Origin: [Mycobacterium] crassicus
Lineage (GTDB): Bacteria; Actinomycetota; Actinomycetes; Mycobacteriales; Mycobacteriaceae
Assembly (NCBI RefSeq): GCF_020181615.1
Contig: NZ_CP084029.1
Coordinates: 310,001-374,000 of the forward strand
Length of the DNA: 64,000 nt
Direction of reading: 5' to 3'
A program made the position numbers and the translations under genes. Position 1 is the stretch's first letter. Every line of letters starts with the position of its first letter. Under the pieces are notes generated by a model. That model was given only the letters and a program-made list of their open reading frames with translations. It had not been told where the DNA came from and searched no databases. Below, piece after piece: positions 54,490 to 64,000 of this stretch.

Positions 54490-55797
54490 TCACCCGATCC
54501 GGGCGAGGGCGGCCCGCACCGCGCCCAGCAGCCGCTCGTCGTCGGCCTCGGGCACACAGCGCAGATCGAGCAGGCAGGCTCCGTCGTGCACCCGGGGCAA
54601 CACCGCGGGATCGCCGGTGCGCAGTGGCGCGGCCACCGCCTCGGGCAGCCGGACCGCCCAGCCCGGCAGCGGAACTCCGGGGGCGCCGCCGCCTCCGACT
54701 CGGCCGTCGTGCGCGACGACGGTGGCGCCGATCGCGTCGGCCAGCCGGTCCGCGCGGGCGCGCAACCGCGCCGGGTCGGCATGCAGAGCCCGGGTCACCG
54801 GGGCGGCGGCGCCGGAGACGGTGGCCTCCAGGGCGGCGAGCGTGAGCTTGTCGGCTCGCACCGCCCGGGCCAACGGATGCCGGGCCAGCCGGGCCACGAT
54901 CTGGCTGCGGCCCAGCACCACGCCGGCCTGCGGCCCGCCGAGCAGCTTGTCGCCGCTGGCGGTGATCACGTCGGCACCGTCGGTCAGGGCGGTGGTCGCA
55001 TCGGGCTCGTCGGGCAGCAACGTATCGGGGGCCAGCAGTCCGCTGCCCAGGTCCGCTATCAGCGGTACGGCGTATTCGCTTGCCAGTGGCCGTAGTTCAC
55101 GCAGATTCACGGCGGCGGTGAACCCGTGCACGGCAAAATTGCTGGGATGCACCTTGAGGATGCAGCCGGTCTGCGGCCCGAGGGCTTCGGCGTAGTCACG
55201 CAGGTGGGTGCGGTTGGTGGTGCCCACCTCGCGCAGTGCCGCACCGGTGGAGGCGATCAGGTCCGGCAGCCGGAACCCGGCCCCGATCTCGATCAGCTCA
55301 CCACGGCTGACCACCACCTCCTTGCCCGCGGCCAGCGCGGTGGTGGCCAGCACCAGCGCCGCGGCACCGTTGTTGACCACCAGGGCGTCCTCGGCCGGCG
55401 GGCAGGCGGCCAGCAGTGCGGCGCGTGCCGCGATGCCGCGCGCCGACCGGGCGCCGGTGTCCAGGTCCAGCTCGACGTCGACGTAGCCGCTGGCTGCCAC
55501 CAGGGCCTCGATCGCGGTCGCCGACAACGGCGCCCGGCCCAGGTTGGTGTGCACCACCACCCCGGTGGCGTTGAGCACAGGCCGCAGCGTGGTCCCGGCG
55601 TGGGCCGGAAGAGTCTCCAACACAACGTTTGCGACCTGCTCGGGTGCCAGTTCGCCGCGGCGTGCCCGGTCCTGAGCGTCGCGCACCAGCCGGCGGACGA
55701 CATGCTCGCCGAGCCGGCTGCGGGCCGCCGCGACGCTGGGCAGCATCAGCAGTGCGTCGGTACGCGGAATGGCGCGGCGCGGGTCGACCTCGTTCAC
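54490..55797 (-). CDS. selA: L-seryl-tRNA(Sec) selenium transferase SelA
   Basis: A 435-residue PLP enzyme that converts Ser-tRNA(Sec) to Sec-tRNA(Sec) with selenophosphate. The cofactor lysine is in SGDKLLGGPQAGVVLG (Lys284); other family stretches are LNATGVVVHTNLGRAPLSA, VNNGAAALVLATTALA and REVGTTNRTHLRDY. GTG 55797 is chosen because GAGGAGG lies just before it. The open frame continues far upstream only because it runs through the tRNA and selD in antisense. The tRNA-Sec 3' end is 16 bp upstream, so both probably come from one transcript processed at the tRNA. Confidence 0.96.
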   Translation of the reverse strand: MNEVDPRRAIPRTDALLMLPSVAAARSRLGEHVVRRLVRDAQDRARRGELAPEQVANVVLETLPAHAGTTLRPVLNATGVVVHTNLGRAPLSATAIEALVAASGYVDVELDLDTGARSARGIAARAALLAACPPAEDALVVNNGAAALVLATTALAAGKEVVVSRGELIEIGAGFRLPDLIASTGAALREVGTTNRTHLRDYAEALGPQTGCILKVHPSNFAVHGFTAAVNLRELRPLASEYAVPLIADLGSGLLAPDTLLPDEPDATTALTDGADVITASGDKLLGGPQAGVVLGRSQIVARLARHPLARAVRADKLTLAALEATVSGAAAPVTRALHADPARLRARADRLADAIGATVVAHDGRVGGGGAPGVPLPGWAVRLPEAVAAPLRTGDPAVLPRVHDGACLLDLRCVPEADDERLLGAVRAALARIG

Positions 55798-55813: not shown

Positions 55814-55908
55814 TGGCGGAGGCGGACGGGAATCGAACCCGCCAGGCCGAGCTGCTCGGCCTCACCGGTTTTGAAGACCGGGGAGCCCACCAGGACCCAG
55901 ACACCTCC
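55814..55908 (-). tRNA. selC: tRNA-Sec (anticodon UCA)
   Basis: A 95-nt tRNA with encoded CCA. It begins GGAGGTGT and ends CCGCCTCC-G-CCA. The acceptor stem pairs for 7 of 8 positions, as in the extended SelC stem. The D stem has 6 pairs (GGGTCC/GGGCTC), the anticodon arm is CCGGT-CTTCAAA-ACCGG with UCA at 55872-55874, the long variable arm is GGCCGAG-CAG-CTCGGCC, and the T arm holds GGTTCGATTCC. These are the defining features of selenocysteine tRNA. It is transcribed with selA and is divergent from selD over 36 bp. Confidence 0.97.
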
Positions 55909-55931
55909 CTGCACCGAACACGACGCGGTGA

Positions 55932-55944
55932 CTAGCCTAAGCCG
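55932..55944. promoter_or_regulatory. Overlapping divergent -10 boxes for selD and tRNA-Sec
   Basis: TAGCCT (55933-55938, plus) stands 6 nt before the selD ATG, a leaderless arrangement. TAGGCT (55939-55934, minus) points toward the tRNA. The two hexamers share five base pairs, so the two promoters must compete for polymerase. Confidence 0.5.
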
Positions 55945-56934
55945 ATGGGTTCGGTGCAGGACACCCGATTGACCGGCTATGCGCACGGCGGCGGCTGCGC
56001 GTGCAAGATTCCGCCCGGTGAGCTGGAGGACGCAGTACGCGGCCTGACCGGCCAATCCGGGGACCGGGTGCTGGTCGGGCTCGACGACGGCGATGACGCC
56101 GCGGTCGTCCTGGTGCGCGATGACCTGGCGGTGTTGTCCACCGCGGACTTCTTCACCCCCGTCGTGGATGACGCCTACGACTGGGGGCGGATCGCGGCTG
56201 CCAACGCCCTGTCGGACATCTACGCGATGGGCGGAGACCCGGTGGTCGCCATCAACCTGGTCGGCTGGCCGCGCGAGACGCTGCCGCTGGAGCTGATGAC
56301 CGAGGTGCTGCGCGGCGGACTGGCGGTGGCCCAGCAGGCGGGCTGCCCGGTGATCGGCGGGCACTCCATCGATGATCCGGAACCGAAATACGGCATGGCG
56401 GTCACCGGGGTGGCCGATCCGAACCGCTTGCTGCGCAACGACGCCGCACTGGCCGGCCTGCCGCTGACGTTGACCAAGCCGATCGGGGTGGGGCTGCTCA
56501 ACAACCGGCACAAGCGCACCGGCGAGGTCTTCGACGAGGCGATCGCGACCATGGTCGGGCTGAACCGTGACGCCGCCCGGGCCGCGTTGTCGCAGGGGGT
56601 GCGGGCGGCTACCGACGTCACCGGGTTCGGTCTGCTCGGCCACCTCTACAAACTGTGCCGAGCCTCGCGGGTCGGCGCGGTGATCGACCGTGCGGCGGTG
56701 CCGGTCATCGAAGGCGCGCATGCGGCGCTGCGCGACGGCTTCGTATCCGGCGGCAGCCGCCGCAACCTGGACTGGGTTCGCCCGCACCTTCGTCCCGGGC
56801 CCGGGACAGGCGAGGACGACCTGCTGCTGCTGGCCGACGCGCAGACCTCTGGCGGTCTGCTGGTCGTCGGCGAGCTGCCCGGGTATCCGGTGATCGGGCA
56901 CACCGTGGCGGGTAGCGGAATCGAGGTGCGGTGA
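55945..56934 (+). CDS. selD: Selenophosphate synthetase SelD
   Basis: A 329-residue SelD that makes selenophosphate from selenide and ATP. The active-site loop HGGGCACKIPP has Cys18 and Lys21 (equivalent to E. coli Cys17/Lys20), so this SelD does not itself use selenocysteine. Further motifs are LSTADFFTPVVDDAYDWGRI, ANALSDIYAMGGDPV, GGHSIDDPEPKYG and ATDVTGFGLLGHLYKL. ATG 55945 lies 6 nt after a -10 hexamer, so the mRNA is probably leaderless. Its stop overlaps the start of a DUF2945 gene (GTGA). Confidence 0.97.
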   Translation: MGSVQDTRLTGYAHGGGCACKIPPGELEDAVRGLTGQSGDRVLVGLDDGDDAAVVLVRDDLAVLSTADFFTPVVDDAYDWGRIAAANALSDIYAMGGDPVVAINLVGWPRETLPLELMTEVLRGGLAVAQQAGCPVIGGHSIDDPEPKYGMAVTGVADPNRLLRNDAALAGLPLTLTKPIGVGLLNNRHKRTGEVFDEAIATMVGLNRDAARAALSQGVRAATDVTGFGLLGHLYKLCRASRVGAVIDRAAVPVIEGAHAALRDGFVSGGSRRNLDWVRPHLRPGPGTGEDDLLLLADAQTSGGLLVVGELPGYPVIGHTVAGSGIEVR

Positions 56935-57156: not shown

Positions 57157-58200
57157 TCACCCGGCCGTGGTGATCGAATCCCCGGTGATGCCCGCCGCAC
57201 GGCGGGCTGCCAGCCGGCGTTTCTGCGGCTCGATGGTGTACCGGGGGTCCTTGGCCGATTCGATGCCGGCCTCGAACACCCCGAACCGGGTCAGTGCCGA
57301 CGCGGCCAGCAAGGCCGTCCCCGACAACGCCGCCACCACGCGGTTCCGCCCGCCCAGCAGCGTCCCCACACCGCCGGCCACCGCCAGGCGTTCACTGGCG
57401 CGCAGCATCGCCCCGGCCCGGCCGTCATGCAGCGGCTCGGCGGCGATCGGGTCCATCCGCTGCTCCATGAGACGGGTGGCGAGCAGGTCACCGACCACCC
57501 CGAGCACCGCCAATCGCCGGGCCGGCCCGGCCTGGGCCACCGGCGTGGTGAGCATCGCCAGCCCGCCGGAGGCCAGGCTCGCCGAGCTGACGAACACGAA
57601 CGGCAGGTCGCGATGGGCACCGTGCCAGGTCGGGGTTGCGGTGTCGCCCAGCAACACGGCGGTATAGACGGCCAGCGGTGCCGCGAACACCGCGGCCTCC
57701 AAGCCGGCCGGCCCCTCGACGGCGCGCAGCACGCCGCGCAGTGGGCCCAGCGGCAGCCGTTCGCCGGTGAGCCGGTCGACCTCCGCGGCGGCGGCCACCC
57801 CGGCGCCGGTGCTGAAGGCCGAGAGGATCCACGATCCCAGGCTCATCGGGGAGGTGAGCTTGATGGTGCGCAGCATGTTGAAGAATCGCTCCGGGCGGCC
57901 GAGGTCGCTGATCAGGGCCGCAGCGCTGAGCATCACCGCCCCCAGTGCTGCGAGCCGGGCGTTGCGCCGCAACACCGGCCGGCCGGTCAGCTGCGCCCCG
58001 GCGGCCAGCAGCCCGGAGCCACCGGCGACGCCGCCGAGGAACAGATACGCCGCGATCTCATGCGACCACGGCGCGGGCTTGACCACCGGGCGTCCGTAGT
58101 AGGAGGTGAACTGCACATCGGGCACCATCGGCATTTCCCGGCCGCCGTCACCACCACCCCGGCGGCGGCGGCGCCGGCGGGGCTCGTGCGCAGTGCTCAC
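57157..58200 (-). CDS. NrfD/PsrC-type membrane subunit of formate dehydrogenase
   Basis: A 347-residue membrane protein of the NrfD/polysulfide reductase type. After a cytoplasmic Arg-rich start, eight or so hydrophobic segments follow, including the quinone-site region PWSHEIAAYLFLGGVAGGSG, AALGAVMLSAAALISDLGRPERF and MSLGSWILSAFSTGAGVAAAA. It transfers electrons from the ferredoxin subunit to menaquinone and replaces the cytochrome b subunit (FdnI) of the E. coli enzyme. GTG 58200 overlaps the fdhB stop by 4 bases. Because NrfD subunits have no heme, the link to quinone goes directly through the last Fe-S cluster. Confidence 0.88.
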   Translation of the reverse strand: MSTAHEPRRRRRRRGGGDGGREMPMVPDVQFTSYYGRPVVKPAPWSHEIAAYLFLGGVAGGSGLLAAGAQLTGRPVLRRNARLAALGAVMLSAAALISDLGRPERFFNMLRTIKLTSPMSLGSWILSAFSTGAGVAAAAEVDRLTGERLPLGPLRGVLRAVEGPAGLEAAVFAAPLAVYTAVLLGDTATPTWHGAHRDLPFVFVSSASLASGGLAMLTTPVAQAGPARRLAVLGVVGDLLATRLMEQRMDPIAAEPLHDGRAGAMLRASERLAVAGGVGTLLGGRNRVVAALSGTALLAASALTRFGVFEAGIESAKDPRYTIEPQKRRLAARRAAGITGDSITTAG

Positions 58201-59174
58201 CGGCGCCTCCCCAGAAATGCCACCGCCGCCGCACCGATCATCCCCGCGGCGGCCAGCGCCGACCGTTTGAACATCACCGGCAGGTCGGCGGTGCCCACCC
58301 GTGGGTCCGGCGGCAGGCCGTACACCTCCGGTTCGTCGAGCAGCAGGAAAATCGACCCGGTGCCGCCGACGCCGTCGTTCTCGTTGGCGCCGTAGAGCCG
58401 CGCCTCGGTCCGGCCCTCCGCATGCATGCGGGTCACCCGCTCACGCGCTTCGACGACCAGATCGTCGTGGTCGCCGAACTTGATCGACTCGGTCGGACAG
58501 GTTTTCGCGCAGGCCGGGACCTCATCGTCGACCAGTCGGTCGTAGCACATCGTGCACTTCTGGGCGATTCCCGTCTCGGCCACCCCGGGCTCGGCCCCCC
58601 GGGCCGACTTCGGCGCGGCCGTGCCGTCGGTGCGGCGCTCGATGACCCCGAACGGGCAGGCCGGCACGCAGTTGCCGCAGCCGTTGCAGATGTCGTCCTG
58701 CACCACCACTGTGCCGAATTCGGTGCGGAACAGCGAACCCGTCGGGCACACGTCCAGGCACCCGGCGTGCGTGCAGTGCTTGCAGACATCCGAGGCCATC
58801 AGCCAGCGGAACTGGTCGGTGTCGGGAGGGGTCAGATCCGGTGCCGCACCGGGCATCTTCGGCATGCCCAGGTCGATGAGTTGCCGTCCGCTCTCGCGTG
58901 CCGCAGCGATGGCGTCTTGGCCCTGCTCGATGAACGCCACATGCCGCCAGGTGTTGGCGCCCAGTGCGCCGGTGTTGTCGTACGACGACCCGAGCAGCTC
59001 CAGATCACCGTCGGCGGGGTTGTGGTTCCACTCCTTGCAGGCCACCTCGCAGGCCTTGCACCCGATACAGATCGAGGTGTCGGTCAAGAACCCCTTGCGC
59101 CGGTGGCGCTTTCCCGGCATCTCGGACCAGCCGGCGTCGGCAGCGGGGTCGGTCGGTCCGGACAGTTGGCCCAT
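58197..59174 (-). CDS. fdhB: Formate dehydrogenase iron-sulfur subunit
   Basis: A 325-residue ferredoxin subunit with four [4Fe-4S] cysteine sets: CIGCKACEVACKEWN, CKHCTHAGCLDVCP, CNGCGNCVPACPFG, and CTMCYDRL with CAKTCPTESI. Near the C-terminus is one hydrophobic helix (LAAAGMIGAAAVAFLG) ending RRR, as in the membrane-anchored FdnH/FdoH subunits. It carries electrons from the Mo/W-Sec site of FdhA to the NrfD subunit. ATG 59174 overlaps the fdhA stop (ATGA), and its own stop overlaps the membrane-subunit start, so the three genes are translationally coupled. Confidence 0.95.
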   Translation of the reverse strand: MGQLSGPTDPAADAGWSEMPGKRHRRKGFLTDTSICIGCKACEVACKEWNHNPADGDLELLGSSYDNTGALGANTWRHVAFIEQGQDAIAAARESGRQLIDLGMPKMPGAAPDLTPPDTDQFRWLMASDVCKHCTHAGCLDVCPTGSLFRTEFGTVVVQDDICNGCGNCVPACPFGVIERRTDGTAAPKSARGAEPGVAETGIAQKCTMCYDRLVDDEVPACAKTCPTESIKFGDHDDLVVEARERVTRMHAEGRTEARLYGANENDGVGGTGSIFLLLDEPEVYGLPPDPRVGTADLPVMFKRSALAAAGMIGAAAVAFLGRRR

Positions 59175-62100
59175 CAGTCCCGCCTTTCAGGATCGGTGTT
59201 GCCGGTCTCCGGCGTTGCACCGGAGCGGCTTTGGTACTCGGCGACCAGCCGCAACAACTCCTCGCCGTGCGGCCGCCGGCCCGGCTGGATGTCGCACGAG
59301 CCGGCCTTGGACTCCTGGATCTGCACGTTCGGGTCCAGTGTCACCCCGAGCAGATCGTTGGCGGCGTCGCCGCTGACCACCGCGTCGCCGCCCACCCCCC
59401 AGTGGTAGGGCAGGCCGATCTGGTGCACGGTGTGTCCGCCCACCACCAGCGGCGTCATCCGATCGGTCACCAGCACCCGTGCCTCGATCGCCGCGCGGGG
59501 CGAGATGATGGTGGCCCAGCCGTAGTTCTCCAGGCCCCGTTCGGCGGCCAGCGCCGGCGACACCTCGCAGAACATCTCCGGCTGCAGTTCGGCCAGGTAC
59601 GGCAACCAGCGGCTCATCCCGCCGGCGGTGTGGTGCTCGGTCAGCCGGTAGGTGGTGAACACGTACGGGTAGACGTCGGCGCCCGGCTCACCGGCGCTGG
59701 GCGCCGACAGGTTGTCCTTGCGGGGGAATGTGATTCGGGCCGGGTTGCGCTGCTGGGCGTGCAGCGCGTTGACGACGGGGGACTCCTGCGGTTCGTAATG
59801 CGTCGGCAGTGGTCCGTCGACGACGCCTTTCGGCGCGAACAGCCAGCCCTTCCCGTCAGGCTGCATCACGAACGGGTCGTCGCCGGCCAACCCCGCCGCG
59901 CCGCCGGTGCCCGGACCGGGTTGCGATCCCGGGGCACGGTCGATCACGAAGTCAGGCACGTCGTCGCCGACCCAGCGGCCCAACTCGGGGTCCCACCAGA
60001 TGTATTTCTTGCGCTCGCTCCACGGCTGTCCGGTCGGGTCGGCGGAGGCCCGGTTGTACAGGATCCGGCGGTCGGCCGGCCAGGCCCAGCCCCACTGCGA
60101 CTGGGTGCGGCCCGAACCGCCGTGGGGTGTCCGGCGGGCAGCCCGGTTGACCCCGTCGGCGTACACGCCGCTGTAGATCCAGCAGCCCGCGGCGGTGGAC
60201 CCGTCCGCACGCAGCTCGGTGAACCCCGACAGGCACCGGCCGGCATCGTCACCGGTCAGCTGGTGACCGTTGATCTCGGCCAGCACGAACTGCGGATCGG
60301 GATCGCCGTGCTCATCGACGGGATAGTCCCAGACCAGATCCAGCAGCGGCCGGTCCCGCGGGTCGGTGGACCCGGCCAGCTTGGCGCGGATCCGGTTGCC
60401 CAACTCGATGAAGAACTGCAATTCGCTGATGCAGTCGCCCGGCGGCTCGACGGCCTGGTGGCGCCACTGCAGCAGCCGTTGGGTCTGGGTGAACGTCCCC
60501 GCCTTCTCCACGTGGCTGGCCGCCGGCAGGAAGAACACCTCGGTGTCGATGTCTTGCGCGCGCAGTTCACCGGAGGCGATCTCCGGGCCGTCCTTCCACC
60601 AGGTGGCGGACTCGATCAGGTTGAGGTCGCGCACCACCAGCCACTTCAGGTGTGCCATTCCCAGGCGTTGCTGGCGCCCGTTGGCCGAGCCGACGGCCGG
60701 GTTCTGGCCGAGCAGGAAATACCCCTGTACTTCGCCGTCGAGCATCCCGGTCACGGTCTGATAGGTGCCGTGCGCCCCGGTCAGCCGGGGCAGATAGTCA
60801 TAGGCCCAGTCATTGTCGGCACGCGCGGTCTCGCCCCACCAGGCTTTGAGCAGGCTCACGGTGTAGGCGTCGGCGTCGGCCCAGAACCCCTTCTGCTGCT
60901 TGGGTGCCACCGCATCCAGATAGGCCGCCAGTGTGTCGTGCCTGCCGGCGCGCGGCATCGGCAGGTAGCCGGGCAGCATGTCGAACAGGGTCGGGATATC
61001 GGTCGAACCCTGGATGCTGGCGTGCCCGCGCAGGGCCATGATGCCGCCGCCCGGGCGGCCCACGTTGCCCAGCAGCAGCTGCAGGATCGCCGCGGTGCGG
61101 ATGTACTGGGCGCCCAGGGTGTGCTGGGTCCAACCCACCGCGTAGGCGAAGCAGGTGGTGCGCTCCCGCCCGGAATTGGCCGTCACCGCGGCGGCCAGAT
61201 AATCGAATGCGCTCCGGTCGATGCCGCACACGTCGCGCACCATCTCGGCCGTGTAGCGGGCGTAGTGCCGCTTGAGGATCTGGAACACCGTCCGTGGGTG
61301 CTGCAGGGTCGCATCGGTCACCGGGGTGCCCGACTCGTCTCGTTGATACGCCCAACTCGACGGGTCATAGCTCCCGGTGGCCGGGTCGAAACCGGAGAAC
61401 AGCCCACCCAGGTCCTCGGTGTCGCGGAAGTCCTCACCGACCAGCGTCGCGGCGTTGGTGTAGGCCAGGACGTAATCGTGGAACCACAGGTCTTCGGTGA
61501 GGATGTGGTTGATCAACGCGCCCAGCAGCACCACGTCGGACCCGGCCCGGATCGGAATGTGCTTGTCGCACACCGCCGACGTGCGGGTGAAGCGCGGGTC
61601 GACATGGATCACCACCGCGCCGCGGGCTTTGGCCTCAGCCACCCACTGAAAGCCCACCGGATGGCATTCGGCCATGTTCGAGCCCTGGATGACAATGCAG
61701 TCGGCATTGGCCATGTCTTGCAGAAATTGCGTCGCCCCACCGCGACCGAAGGAGGCTCCCAGACCGGGAACCGTGGCGGAGTGTCAAATACGAGCTTGGT
61801 TGTCGATCTGTATGACGCCGGCCGCGGTGAAGAGTTTCTTGATGACGTAGTTCTCTTCGTTGTCCAGCGTCGCCCCGCCCAGTGAGGCGATACCCATGGT
61901 GCGCCGCAACGGCCGGCCGTCGGCGTCACTGTCCTGCCAGGTGTTTCGCCGCGACTCGATGAACCGGTCGGCCACCATGTCGATCGCGGTGTCGAGTTCC
62001 AGCGGCTGCCAGTCCGTGGCCCGCGGGGCGCGGTAGAGCACGGTGATCTGCCGGCCCGGGGAGTTGACCAACTGCTCGCTGGCCGCACCCTTGGGGCACA

Positions 62101-62350
62101 ACCGCCCGCGGGAGATCGGCGAGTCCGGGTCACCCTCGATGCCCACGACCTTCTCGTCCTTGACGTAGACGCGCTGGCCGCAGCCGACCGCGCAGTACGG
62201 ACAGACGCTCTGCACCACCCGGTCGGCCGTCGCGGTCCGCGGCGTGGTCGCGCGGGTGTGCTCGGAGGTGACGGCCGGTCCCCGACCCAGTAGGTCACCG
62301 GTGCGCAATTGCCGGATCACCGGCCAGCCAAGGAACTTTCGCTCACTCAT
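59174..62350 (-). CDS. fdhA: Selenocysteine formate dehydrogenase, catalytic subunit (UGA read as Sec)
   Basis: Read with the in-frame UGA at 61786-61784 as selenocysteine this is a 1058-residue Mo/W-bis-MGD formate dehydrogenase. The N-terminal [4Fe-4S] ligands are Cys50, Cys53, Cys57 and Cys85 ([10 protein letters not shown]...RLCPKG). Sec189 lies in [19 protein letters not shown], the same context as E. coli FdnG (DNQARV-U-H); the next-downstream region [11 protein letters not shown] is also conserved. It oxidises formate to CO2. No twin-arginine signal is seen, unlike FdnG. A SECIS-like hairpin follows the UGA. TAGGCT lies 6 nt before ATG 62350, suggesting a leaderless message. Standard gene calling would give two pieces, 61784-62350 and 59174-61714. 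Confidence 0.95.
61754..61786 (-). promoter_or_regulatory. Sec UGA codon and SECIS hairpin in fdhA
   Basis: UGA is at 61786-61784. After 11 nt comes a 7-bp stem GGUUCCC/GGGAGCC (one G-U pair) closing the 5-nt loop GGUCU (hairpin 61772-61754). E. coli fdhF, as I recall it, has the same 11-nt spacing and an identical GGUCU apical motif, the part recognised by SelB. Confidence 0.9.
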
Positions 62351-62439: not shown

Positions 62440-63267
62440 ATGGGTCGGGTCACACGCCGCAACGCCCTGCACCTTCGTGCCGGCGCGCAGACGCAACGCC
62501 TGGAAGCCCTTGCCGTCGAAGAACCGCTGGAGATCCGGGTCAACGGCGCCCCGCTCAGCGTCACCATGCGCACCCCCGGATCTGATGTCGAACTGACGCA
62601 AGGCTTTCTGCTCACCGAGGGAATTATTTCCGGGCGCGAGGACGTGCTGACGGCACGCTACTGCTGCGGAACCGCGGACGGTCAACCGCAGGACTACAAC
62701 GTGCTGGACGTGACGCTCGCCGGGCACGTACCGCGCCCCGATGTGGACCTGACGCGCAACTTCTACACGAGTTCGTCCTGCGGGGTGTGCGGCAAGTCGT
62801 CCCTGGAGGCGGTGCGCCTGGCCAGCCGGTACGGTCCCGCCGACGATCCGGTGCGGGTTGAGGCGGCGGCGTTGACGACCATGCCCGACCAACTGCGGGC
62901 CGCCCAGACCGTGTTCGCCCGCACCGGCGGCTTGCATGCGGCCGCGCTGTTCTCGGTAGGTGATGCGGCCTCGATGCTGGTTGTCCGGGAGGACGTCGGC
63001 AGGCACAACGCGGTCGACAAGGTGATCGGGTGGGCGCTCGAACACGACCGGGTTCCGCTGGCCGGGACCGTGCTGCTGGTCAGTGGGCGGGCGTCGTTCG
63101 AGTTGACCCAGAAGGCGGTGATGGCCGGGGTGCCGGTGCTGGCCGCGGTGTCGGCGCCGTCGTCGCTGGCTGTCGATCTGGCCGCCGAGGCCGGGCTGAC
63201 GCTCGTGGCGTTCCTTCGGGGGGACTCGATGAACGTGTACAGCAGACACGACCGCGTCATCGGATGA
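62440..63267 (+). CDS. fdhD: FdhD sulfurtransferase for formate dehydrogenase cofactor
   Basis: A 275-residue FdhD, which passes sulfur from a cysteine desulfurase to the molybdenum/tungsten cofactor of formate dehydrogenase, an essential activation step. The catalytic cysteines are in [11 protein letters not shown] (Cys114, Cys117); other family motifs are [51 protein letters not shown] and the C-terminal [14 protein letters not shown] precedes ATG 62440. It is divergent from fdhA across 89 bp. No fdhE is in the window. Confidence 0.95.
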
Positions 63268-63390: not shown

Positions 63391-64000
63391 ATGGCTAGTC
63401 ACAGCAGGCGCGTGATCGGCGTCGGCGCCGCGGCGACCGCCTTCCTGGCGGCGGGGATGACGTCGATCGCCGCCCCGCCGGCGAACGCCGACCTGTGGGA
63501 CCGGATCTTCGACCCAATGGTGAACACCTTCGACGGCGGAGCGGGTGTGGACCCATTCGCCGACTTCACCGCCGGCAGCGCCGTCGCCCTCGACCCGACC
63601 GACTTCGGGCAGTCGATCAACGACGCGCTCCAGGCATGGCTGACCAGTGACTCCGGCGCGCAGCTGGCTGAAATGATCAACGCGCCGTTCGTCTACCTGT
63701 TCGGCCGCGACCTGGTCGGCAACGGCATTGACGGCTTCACCGAGGCCAACACCTCACTACTGGGCAGCACCGGGTTGTACGGCGACCTCGGCGACGGCGG
63801 CTTCCTGTTCGGCAACGGCGGGGCCGGGGCTGCCGGCGAGATCGGCGTGAACGGCGGCGCCGGTTGGGCGGGCGGTTCGGCCGGCATGTTCGGTGACGGC
63901 GGCGACGGCGGGGCCGGTACGGCCGGTGCCGCGGGTGGAGCGGGCGGCAACGGCGGAAGCATGTTCGGCAGCGGTGGCGATGGCGGCGACGGCGGTGCCA
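63391..64000 (+). CDS. PGRS-repeat protein with export signal, 5' part
   Basis: The frame is open from ATG 63391 (GAGGTG upstream) through the window end, 203 codons. Residues 1-34 are a signal sequence: SRRVIGVGAAATAFLAAGM with a probable cleavage after APPANA. About 90 residues of unique sequence follow (DLWDRIFDPMVNTFDGG; INAPFVYLFGRDLVGNGIDG). From LGDGGFLFGNGGAGAAG on the protein consists of Gly-Gly-Ala/Asn repeats as in PE_PGRS proteins. The linker resembles the one before PGRS domains, but there is no PE domain. The export signal suggests Sec or Tat export instead of type VII secretion. The C-terminus is outside the window. Confidence 0.85.
   Translation, partial: MASHSRRVIGVGAAATAFLAAGMTSIAAPPANADLWDRIFDPMVNTFDGGAGVDPFADFTAGSAVALDPTDFGQSINDALQAWLTSDSGAQLAEMINAPFVYLFGRDLVGNGIDGFTEANTSLLGSTGLYGDLGDGGFLFGNGGAGAAGEIGVNGGAGWAGGSAGMFGDGGDGGAGTAGAAGGAGGNGGSMFGSGGDGGDGGA

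Follow-up and report, generated by a model that had tools for sequence, protein, structure and literature searches.

A UGA-containing formate dehydrogenase gene with its sel genes in a mycobacterium and the probable exchange of sel cassettes beside the same operon

The window analysed here is a stretch of 64,000 nucleotides from [Mycobacterium] crassicus (contig NZ_CP084029.1, positions 310,001 to 374,000); its nearest named relatives belong to Mycolicibacter (94%), in agreement with the original prediction, which placed the DNA in a mycobacterium. The window encodes a formate dehydrogenase (FDH) whose alpha subunit gene, fdhA, contains an in-frame UGA, and the genes for tRNA-Sec, SelA, SelB, SelD, FdhB, FdhC and FdhD are all located within 10 kb of this codon (Table 1). 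The features by which a bacterial selenoprotein gene is recognized, namely an in-frame UGA at a conserved selenocysteine (Sec) site, a stem-loop 3' of it, and tRNA-Sec together with SelA, SelB and SelD, are all present. The SelD encoded in the window is presumably the Cys form, judging by its GGGCACK motif. The divergently oriented selD and tRNA-Sec genes are separated by just 36 bases (55909-55944). The gene content was compared across 81 loci, i.e., the window and the best 80 of 584 relatives, with distant relatives outside this sample: fdhB is present in 80 loci, fdhC in 77, selD in 76, tRNA-Sec in 75, selA in 74, selB in 70 and fdhD in 10, and the six loci that lack tRNA-Sec are short or cut. 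The window also includes the start of a Gly-rich protein with GGDGG repeats (63391-63999, running off the end), which we take to resemble the PGRS-type proteins of mycobacteria; a PHROGs search with this region gave no match.

Table 1. Features of the fdh-sel locus, with positions in the window
Feature	Position	Strand	Evidence
selB, Sec-specific elongation factor, C-terminal winged helix	52680..54476	-	TIGR00475 279 bits; PF09107
selA, Sec synthase, putative GTG start preceded by GAGGAGG	54490..55797	-	TIGR00474 425.2 bits
tRNA-Sec (tca anticodon)	55818..55908	-	RF01852 78.8 bits; ARAGORN 55814-55908
selD, selenophosphate synthetase	55945..56934	+	TIGR00476 383.2 bits
fdhC, NrfD-like membrane subunit	57157..58200	-	PF03916 61.8 bits
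fdhB, Fe-S beta subunit, hydrophobic C-terminal stretch (from translation)	58197..59174	-	TIGR01582 150.6 bits (below 334.7 cut-off); Pfam Fer4
fdhA, formate dehydrogenase alpha subunit, 1058 aa with predicted Sec	59174..62350	-	NF041513, TIGR01553, solved FDHs
SECIS hairpin, 7-bp stem, GGUCU loop, 11 nt past the UGA	61754..61772	-	7/7 pairs in 77/81 loci
UGA codon, predicted Sec at FdhA residue 189	61784..61786	-	TGA in 81/81 loci; aligns with the E. coli fdnG UGA
fdhD, formate dehydrogenase accessory sulfurtransferase	62440..63267	+	NF001943 368.3 bits

In the list of open reading frames of the window, fdhA is represented by two in-frame open pieces on the minus strand (61784-62350 and 59174-61714) separated by the single UGA. 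As originally proposed, with coordinates correct to the base, these pieces join without a frameshift, and reading the UGA as Sec (U) yields a frame of 1058 residues, with U at position 189, that is otherwise open to the true stop. The protein scores above the cut-offs of two NCBIfam models, NF041513, a full-length model covering the FDH family (1898.7 bits; cut-off 1400), and TIGR01553 (947.2 bits; cut-off 814.2). The original expectation that automated annotation would turn fdhA into a pseudogene or two ORFs is less well supported than the reading of the gene itself. The best solved relatives of FdhA are FDHs, including 1h0h (E 1.2e-222), Desulfovibrio-type chains named selenocysteine-containing and 1kqf of E. 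coli; the Desulfovibrio Sec-FDHs (1h0h, 8cm4 and others) are the best-scoring structures, align nearly end to end with FdhA and have their Sec site in the same column. The predicted match between the flanks of the UGA and the Sec site of E. coli FdnG holds as well, with Ile in place of Val (DNQARI-U-HSAT in the window, DNQARV-U-HGPT in fdnG), although the identity between the two proteins is 38%. In the E. coli complex to which FdnG belongs, FdhN, the gamma subunit is an FdnI-type cytochrome b and the alpha subunit carries a Tat signal. The complex encoded in the window differs from the FdhN type in its membrane subunit, which is not an FdnI-type cytochrome b, NrfD being the only Pfam match of FdhC. 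No RR-x-F/L-like (Tat-like) motif was seen in its FdhA, and a loose pattern for such a motif fired in 11 of the 81 loci when the sequence upstream of the start was included. Formally, an in-frame UGA is a stop codon, and fdhA could be taken for a pseudogene that results from a nonsense mutation or a sequencing error. However, the same UGA is found in all 81 loci, which come from several genera, the frame is otherwise open over 1058 codons, and the tRNA-Sec gene is only 5.9 kb away. Given the presence of the UGA throughout the sample, this explanation was rejected, its probability being negligible. The two other matches to molybdopterin oxidoreductases in the same genome contain no internal stop.

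Bacterial SECIS elements (bSECIS) are stem-loops that closely follow the UGA on its 3' side and carry a G in a small apical loop. The element claimed for fdhA is present, with the predicted spacer, stem and loop (GGUUCCC-GGUCU-GGGAGCC, 61772-61754; one of the seven pairs is U-G), and comparison by eye with the E. coli genes finds their loops at the same distance from the UGA, GGUCU in fdhF and AGUCU in fdnG. The 47-nt stretch of UGA and SECIS folds no better than shuffled sequences (z -0.33, not significant), and only the 19-nt hairpin, a segment picked because of the prior claim, is unusually stable (z -3.08). The proven element of E. coli fdnG, folded as a 61-nt stretch, scores only z -0.59 against shuffles, so that fold energy has little sensitivity as a test in this case. 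Of the 1482 TGA triplets that the two strands of the window contain, three, including that of fdhA, are followed at exactly +11 by seven pairs enclosing a 5-nt loop, which has the form xGU in two of the three; hence the hairpin alone is approximately a 1-in-500 event. The Rfam search of the window gave no SECIS match at the gathering score, and a covariance model of the fdhA SECIS, run on the whole genome, yielded one strong match (76.3 bits). The second-best match to this model (23.8 bits, E 0.136; G000:C1:1615123-1615194, plus strand) is probably due to chance, and no obvious second SECIS of the same kind was detected in the genome with the model, which elements of other kinds would escape. 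The case for a selenoprotein is carried by conservation and by the machinery, not by the hairpin alone.

A survey of 297 genomes of the genus, with tRNA-Sec counted above the family cut-off and FDH at E 1e-200 or better, identified tRNA-Sec in 134 genomes and FDH in 141; both are present in 134, FDH only in seven, tRNA-Sec only in none, and neither in 156 (the genomes are related, so a Fisher value for this co-occurrence is not a true probability). Codon 189 was read in the 81 loci and in 16 hand-picked stretches (nine with UGA and seven with Cys) which, of the 141 genomes with FDH, cover the seven FDH-only ones and a few others; one of the nine UGA stretches, L097, is identical to L011 at the protein level. 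Five of the FDH-only genomes (G004, G053, G093, G145 and G152) have TGC or TGT at this site and no hairpin, and no SelB was found in them, the best matches (E 1e-12 to 1e-25) scoring as other translational GTPases do. In two additional genomes (G197 and G138), a Cys paralog, also without the hairpin, is present in addition to a UGA copy. In the FDH tree, the seven Cys sequences form one side of a branch with support of 99. The remaining two FDH-only genomes are fragmented drafts, G086 (300 contigs) and G294 (630 contigs, 74% complete), where the respective loci, L097 and L096, retain a UGA-type fdhA and a selB (SelB identity of 70% and 48%) and tRNA-Sec does not score above the cut-off. From the sequence of the window alone, the UGA could be read by a near-cognate tRNA, e.g., one for Trp or Cys, instead of specifying Sec; against this, FDH is found without tRNA-Sec in only these seven genomes, with Cys codons and no SelB in five and UGA together with selB in the two drafts. 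The co-occurrence of tRNA-Sec with FDH, along with the Cys codons where both tRNA-Sec and SelB are absent, led us to reject such readthrough as scarcely credible. The proposal that fdhA is a selenoprotein gene is strongly backed by the UGA shared by all 81 loci, by tRNA-Sec that in the 297 genomes never occurs without FDH, and by the lack of the hairpin in the Cys versions and of SelB in all five Cys genomes devoid of tRNA-Sec. The Cys versions, which come from the same genus and lack the hairpin as well as, in those five genomes, SelB, offer a clean control, set up by nature, of what the SECIS does. UGA probably carries a double meaning in approximately 45% of the species sampled from the genus (134 of 297 with tRNA-Sec), and therefore fdhA annotations in these species should be joined rather than split. 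Another UGA-type fdhA (L101; G254, contig 14), in a genome that has tRNA-Sec, contains an extra in-frame stop in its later part and is possibly a decaying gene.

The hairpin retains six of the seven pairs in the four loci where pairing is incomplete, and its loop is GGUCU in 51 loci, AGUUU in 19 and AGUCU in 11. In a set of 36 of the 81 sequences (33 distinct), hand-chosen to cover the variants, 98.3% of the stem cells pair, compared to at most 71.0% when the stem is slid; covariation in the same set is weak, with both sides changed in one of the seven pairs and a score of 0.120 against 0.124 for shuffles, i.e., no gain. This weak covariation and the ordinary fold energy of the 47-nt stretch would fit a hairpin that is a by-product of protein-level conservation over an 11-residue stretch, with a different, true recoding signal. 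However, the position and shape of the hairpin are standard, the loops of the two E. coli genes are found at the same distance, and codons 194-196, which vary synonymously among the seven Cys genes, show no such variation in any of the 81 UGA genes, so that the by-product explanation appears very improbable, if somewhat less so than the two rejected above. Among the 81 UGA genes, codons 190-203 have the eighth lowest synonymous diversity of 982 codon windows, and among nine further mycobacterial UGA genes the second lowest of 990, compared to rank 730 of 929, i.e., unsuppressed, in the seven Cys genes; given that codon windows starting at codons 181-188 show synonymous change that is as low or lower, part of this constraint may not be due to the SECIS. 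Codon use is better evidence for the SECIS than either fold or covariation.

Considering the gene content, the UGA, the hairpin, and their observed conservation and joint presence or absence, fdhA is almost certainly a normal selenoprotein gene in which UGA 189 is decoded as Sec by SelA, SelB, SelD and tRNA-Sec, the product being part of FdhABC. By analogy with known bacterial systems, from which the decoding itself, the Mo or W metal and the direction of electron flow are taken, SelD would supply selenophosphate, SelA would convert Ser-tRNA-Sec to Sec-tRNA-Sec, and SelB, bound to the hairpin that follows the UGA, would bring Sec-tRNA-Sec to codon 189. Sec 189 is predicted to be the catalytic residue and a ligand of Mo or W in the membrane-linked FdhABC, and electrons from formate would pass through the Fe-S clusters of the complex to the NrfD-like membrane subunit.

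The remark in the original prediction that Sec decoding in mycobacteria is seldom described undersells the record. SelB is reported in M. avium and as absent from the other mycobacteria then known (PMC1780047, 2007), M. marinum is described as having a Sec-containing FDH (MMAR_5194/5195) linked to selA (MMAR_5190), both lost in M. ulcerans (PMC3434033, 2012), and a study that also gives a figure of 244 predicts tRNA-Sec for 103 mycobacteria (PMC9569102, 2022). Furthermore, M. avium paratuberculosis is listed beside FDH alpha in the results table of a method for the prediction of rare amino acids (PMC1242214). Judging by these descriptions, the M. marinum FDH, from a species different from that of the window, and that of M. 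avium paratuberculosis are likewise predicted mycobacterial Sec-FDHs. For M. smegmatis, a different selenoprotein has been proposed through a bSECIS search (PMC6039565), and the relevant passage of PMC5330540 does not name mycobacteria. According to one study, FdhA is, together with SelD, the most widespread bacterial selenoprotein, and conversion of Sec to Cys is typical of it, with a remnant SECIS in some cases (PMC1794560). No direct measurement of Sec in a mycobacterium was found among the literature matches listed, which covered few subscription papers. Because many relatives share the UGA, and Sec-FDH, SelB and tRNA-Sec of mycobacteria have been published before, the fdhA gene described here is an ordinary, conserved gene of a previously described kind. 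Actinomycetospora belongs to another actinobacterial family. For its Sec-FDHs, a 2020 paper reports selenite-dependent formate removal and identification of FdhA1 by proteomics, and lists the accession of the actinobacterial Sec-FdhA1 as 'n.a.'; by its description there, FDH1 of A. chiangmaiensis is similar to the system in the window, with an FdhA of 1078 aa containing Sec, and FdhB1, FdhC1, SelA and SelB listed under FDH1 (PMC7176365).

More interesting than the fdhA gene itself is the apparent exchange of the sel genes next to it. In 21 of the 81 loci (L015-L019, L021, L022, L024, L026, L028, L029, L031-L033, L035-L037, L039, L043, L044 and L072), the sel genes are located on the other side of fdhA (upstream), in the opposite orientation, and are divergent in sequence: SelA is 55-70% identical to that of the window (20 loci measured) and SelB 45-59% (16 loci), compared to about 80% for fdhA. 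Whole-genome searches for SelB (E 1e-60 or better) found exactly one, 48-53% identical to that of the window, in 17 of these 21 genomes and none in four; accordingly, no SelB close to that of the window was found elsewhere in those genomes. In the SelA tree, which includes 18 of the 21 loci (in the other three, SelA is missing or short), the two sorts of cassettes are split by a long, fully supported branch; the row of L026 in this tree is long and faulty, and the bootstrap had not settled. In the FDH tree built for this comparison, from which L089, L097 and L101 were left out, the 21 loci fall in two places and supported branches force two changes, suggesting that on at least two occasions the fdh operon became paired with the other sel cassette; the alternative is that both cassettes are ancestral and were differentially lost. 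The hairpins of the 21 loci are the same as that of the window or differ by one or two stem bases. It thus appears probable that two diverged mycobacterial sel cassettes (about 60% identity in SelA and 50% in SelB) have been exchanged at least twice beside the same fdh operon, and that two SelB lineages decode virtually the same SECIS; if so, nature would have carried out a swap experiment on the recognition of the SECIS by SelB. The SelA of one divergent cassette, that of L015, is 76-79% identical to the SelA of loci L112-L115, from four mycobacteria with a second FDH type, compared to 60% with that of the window.
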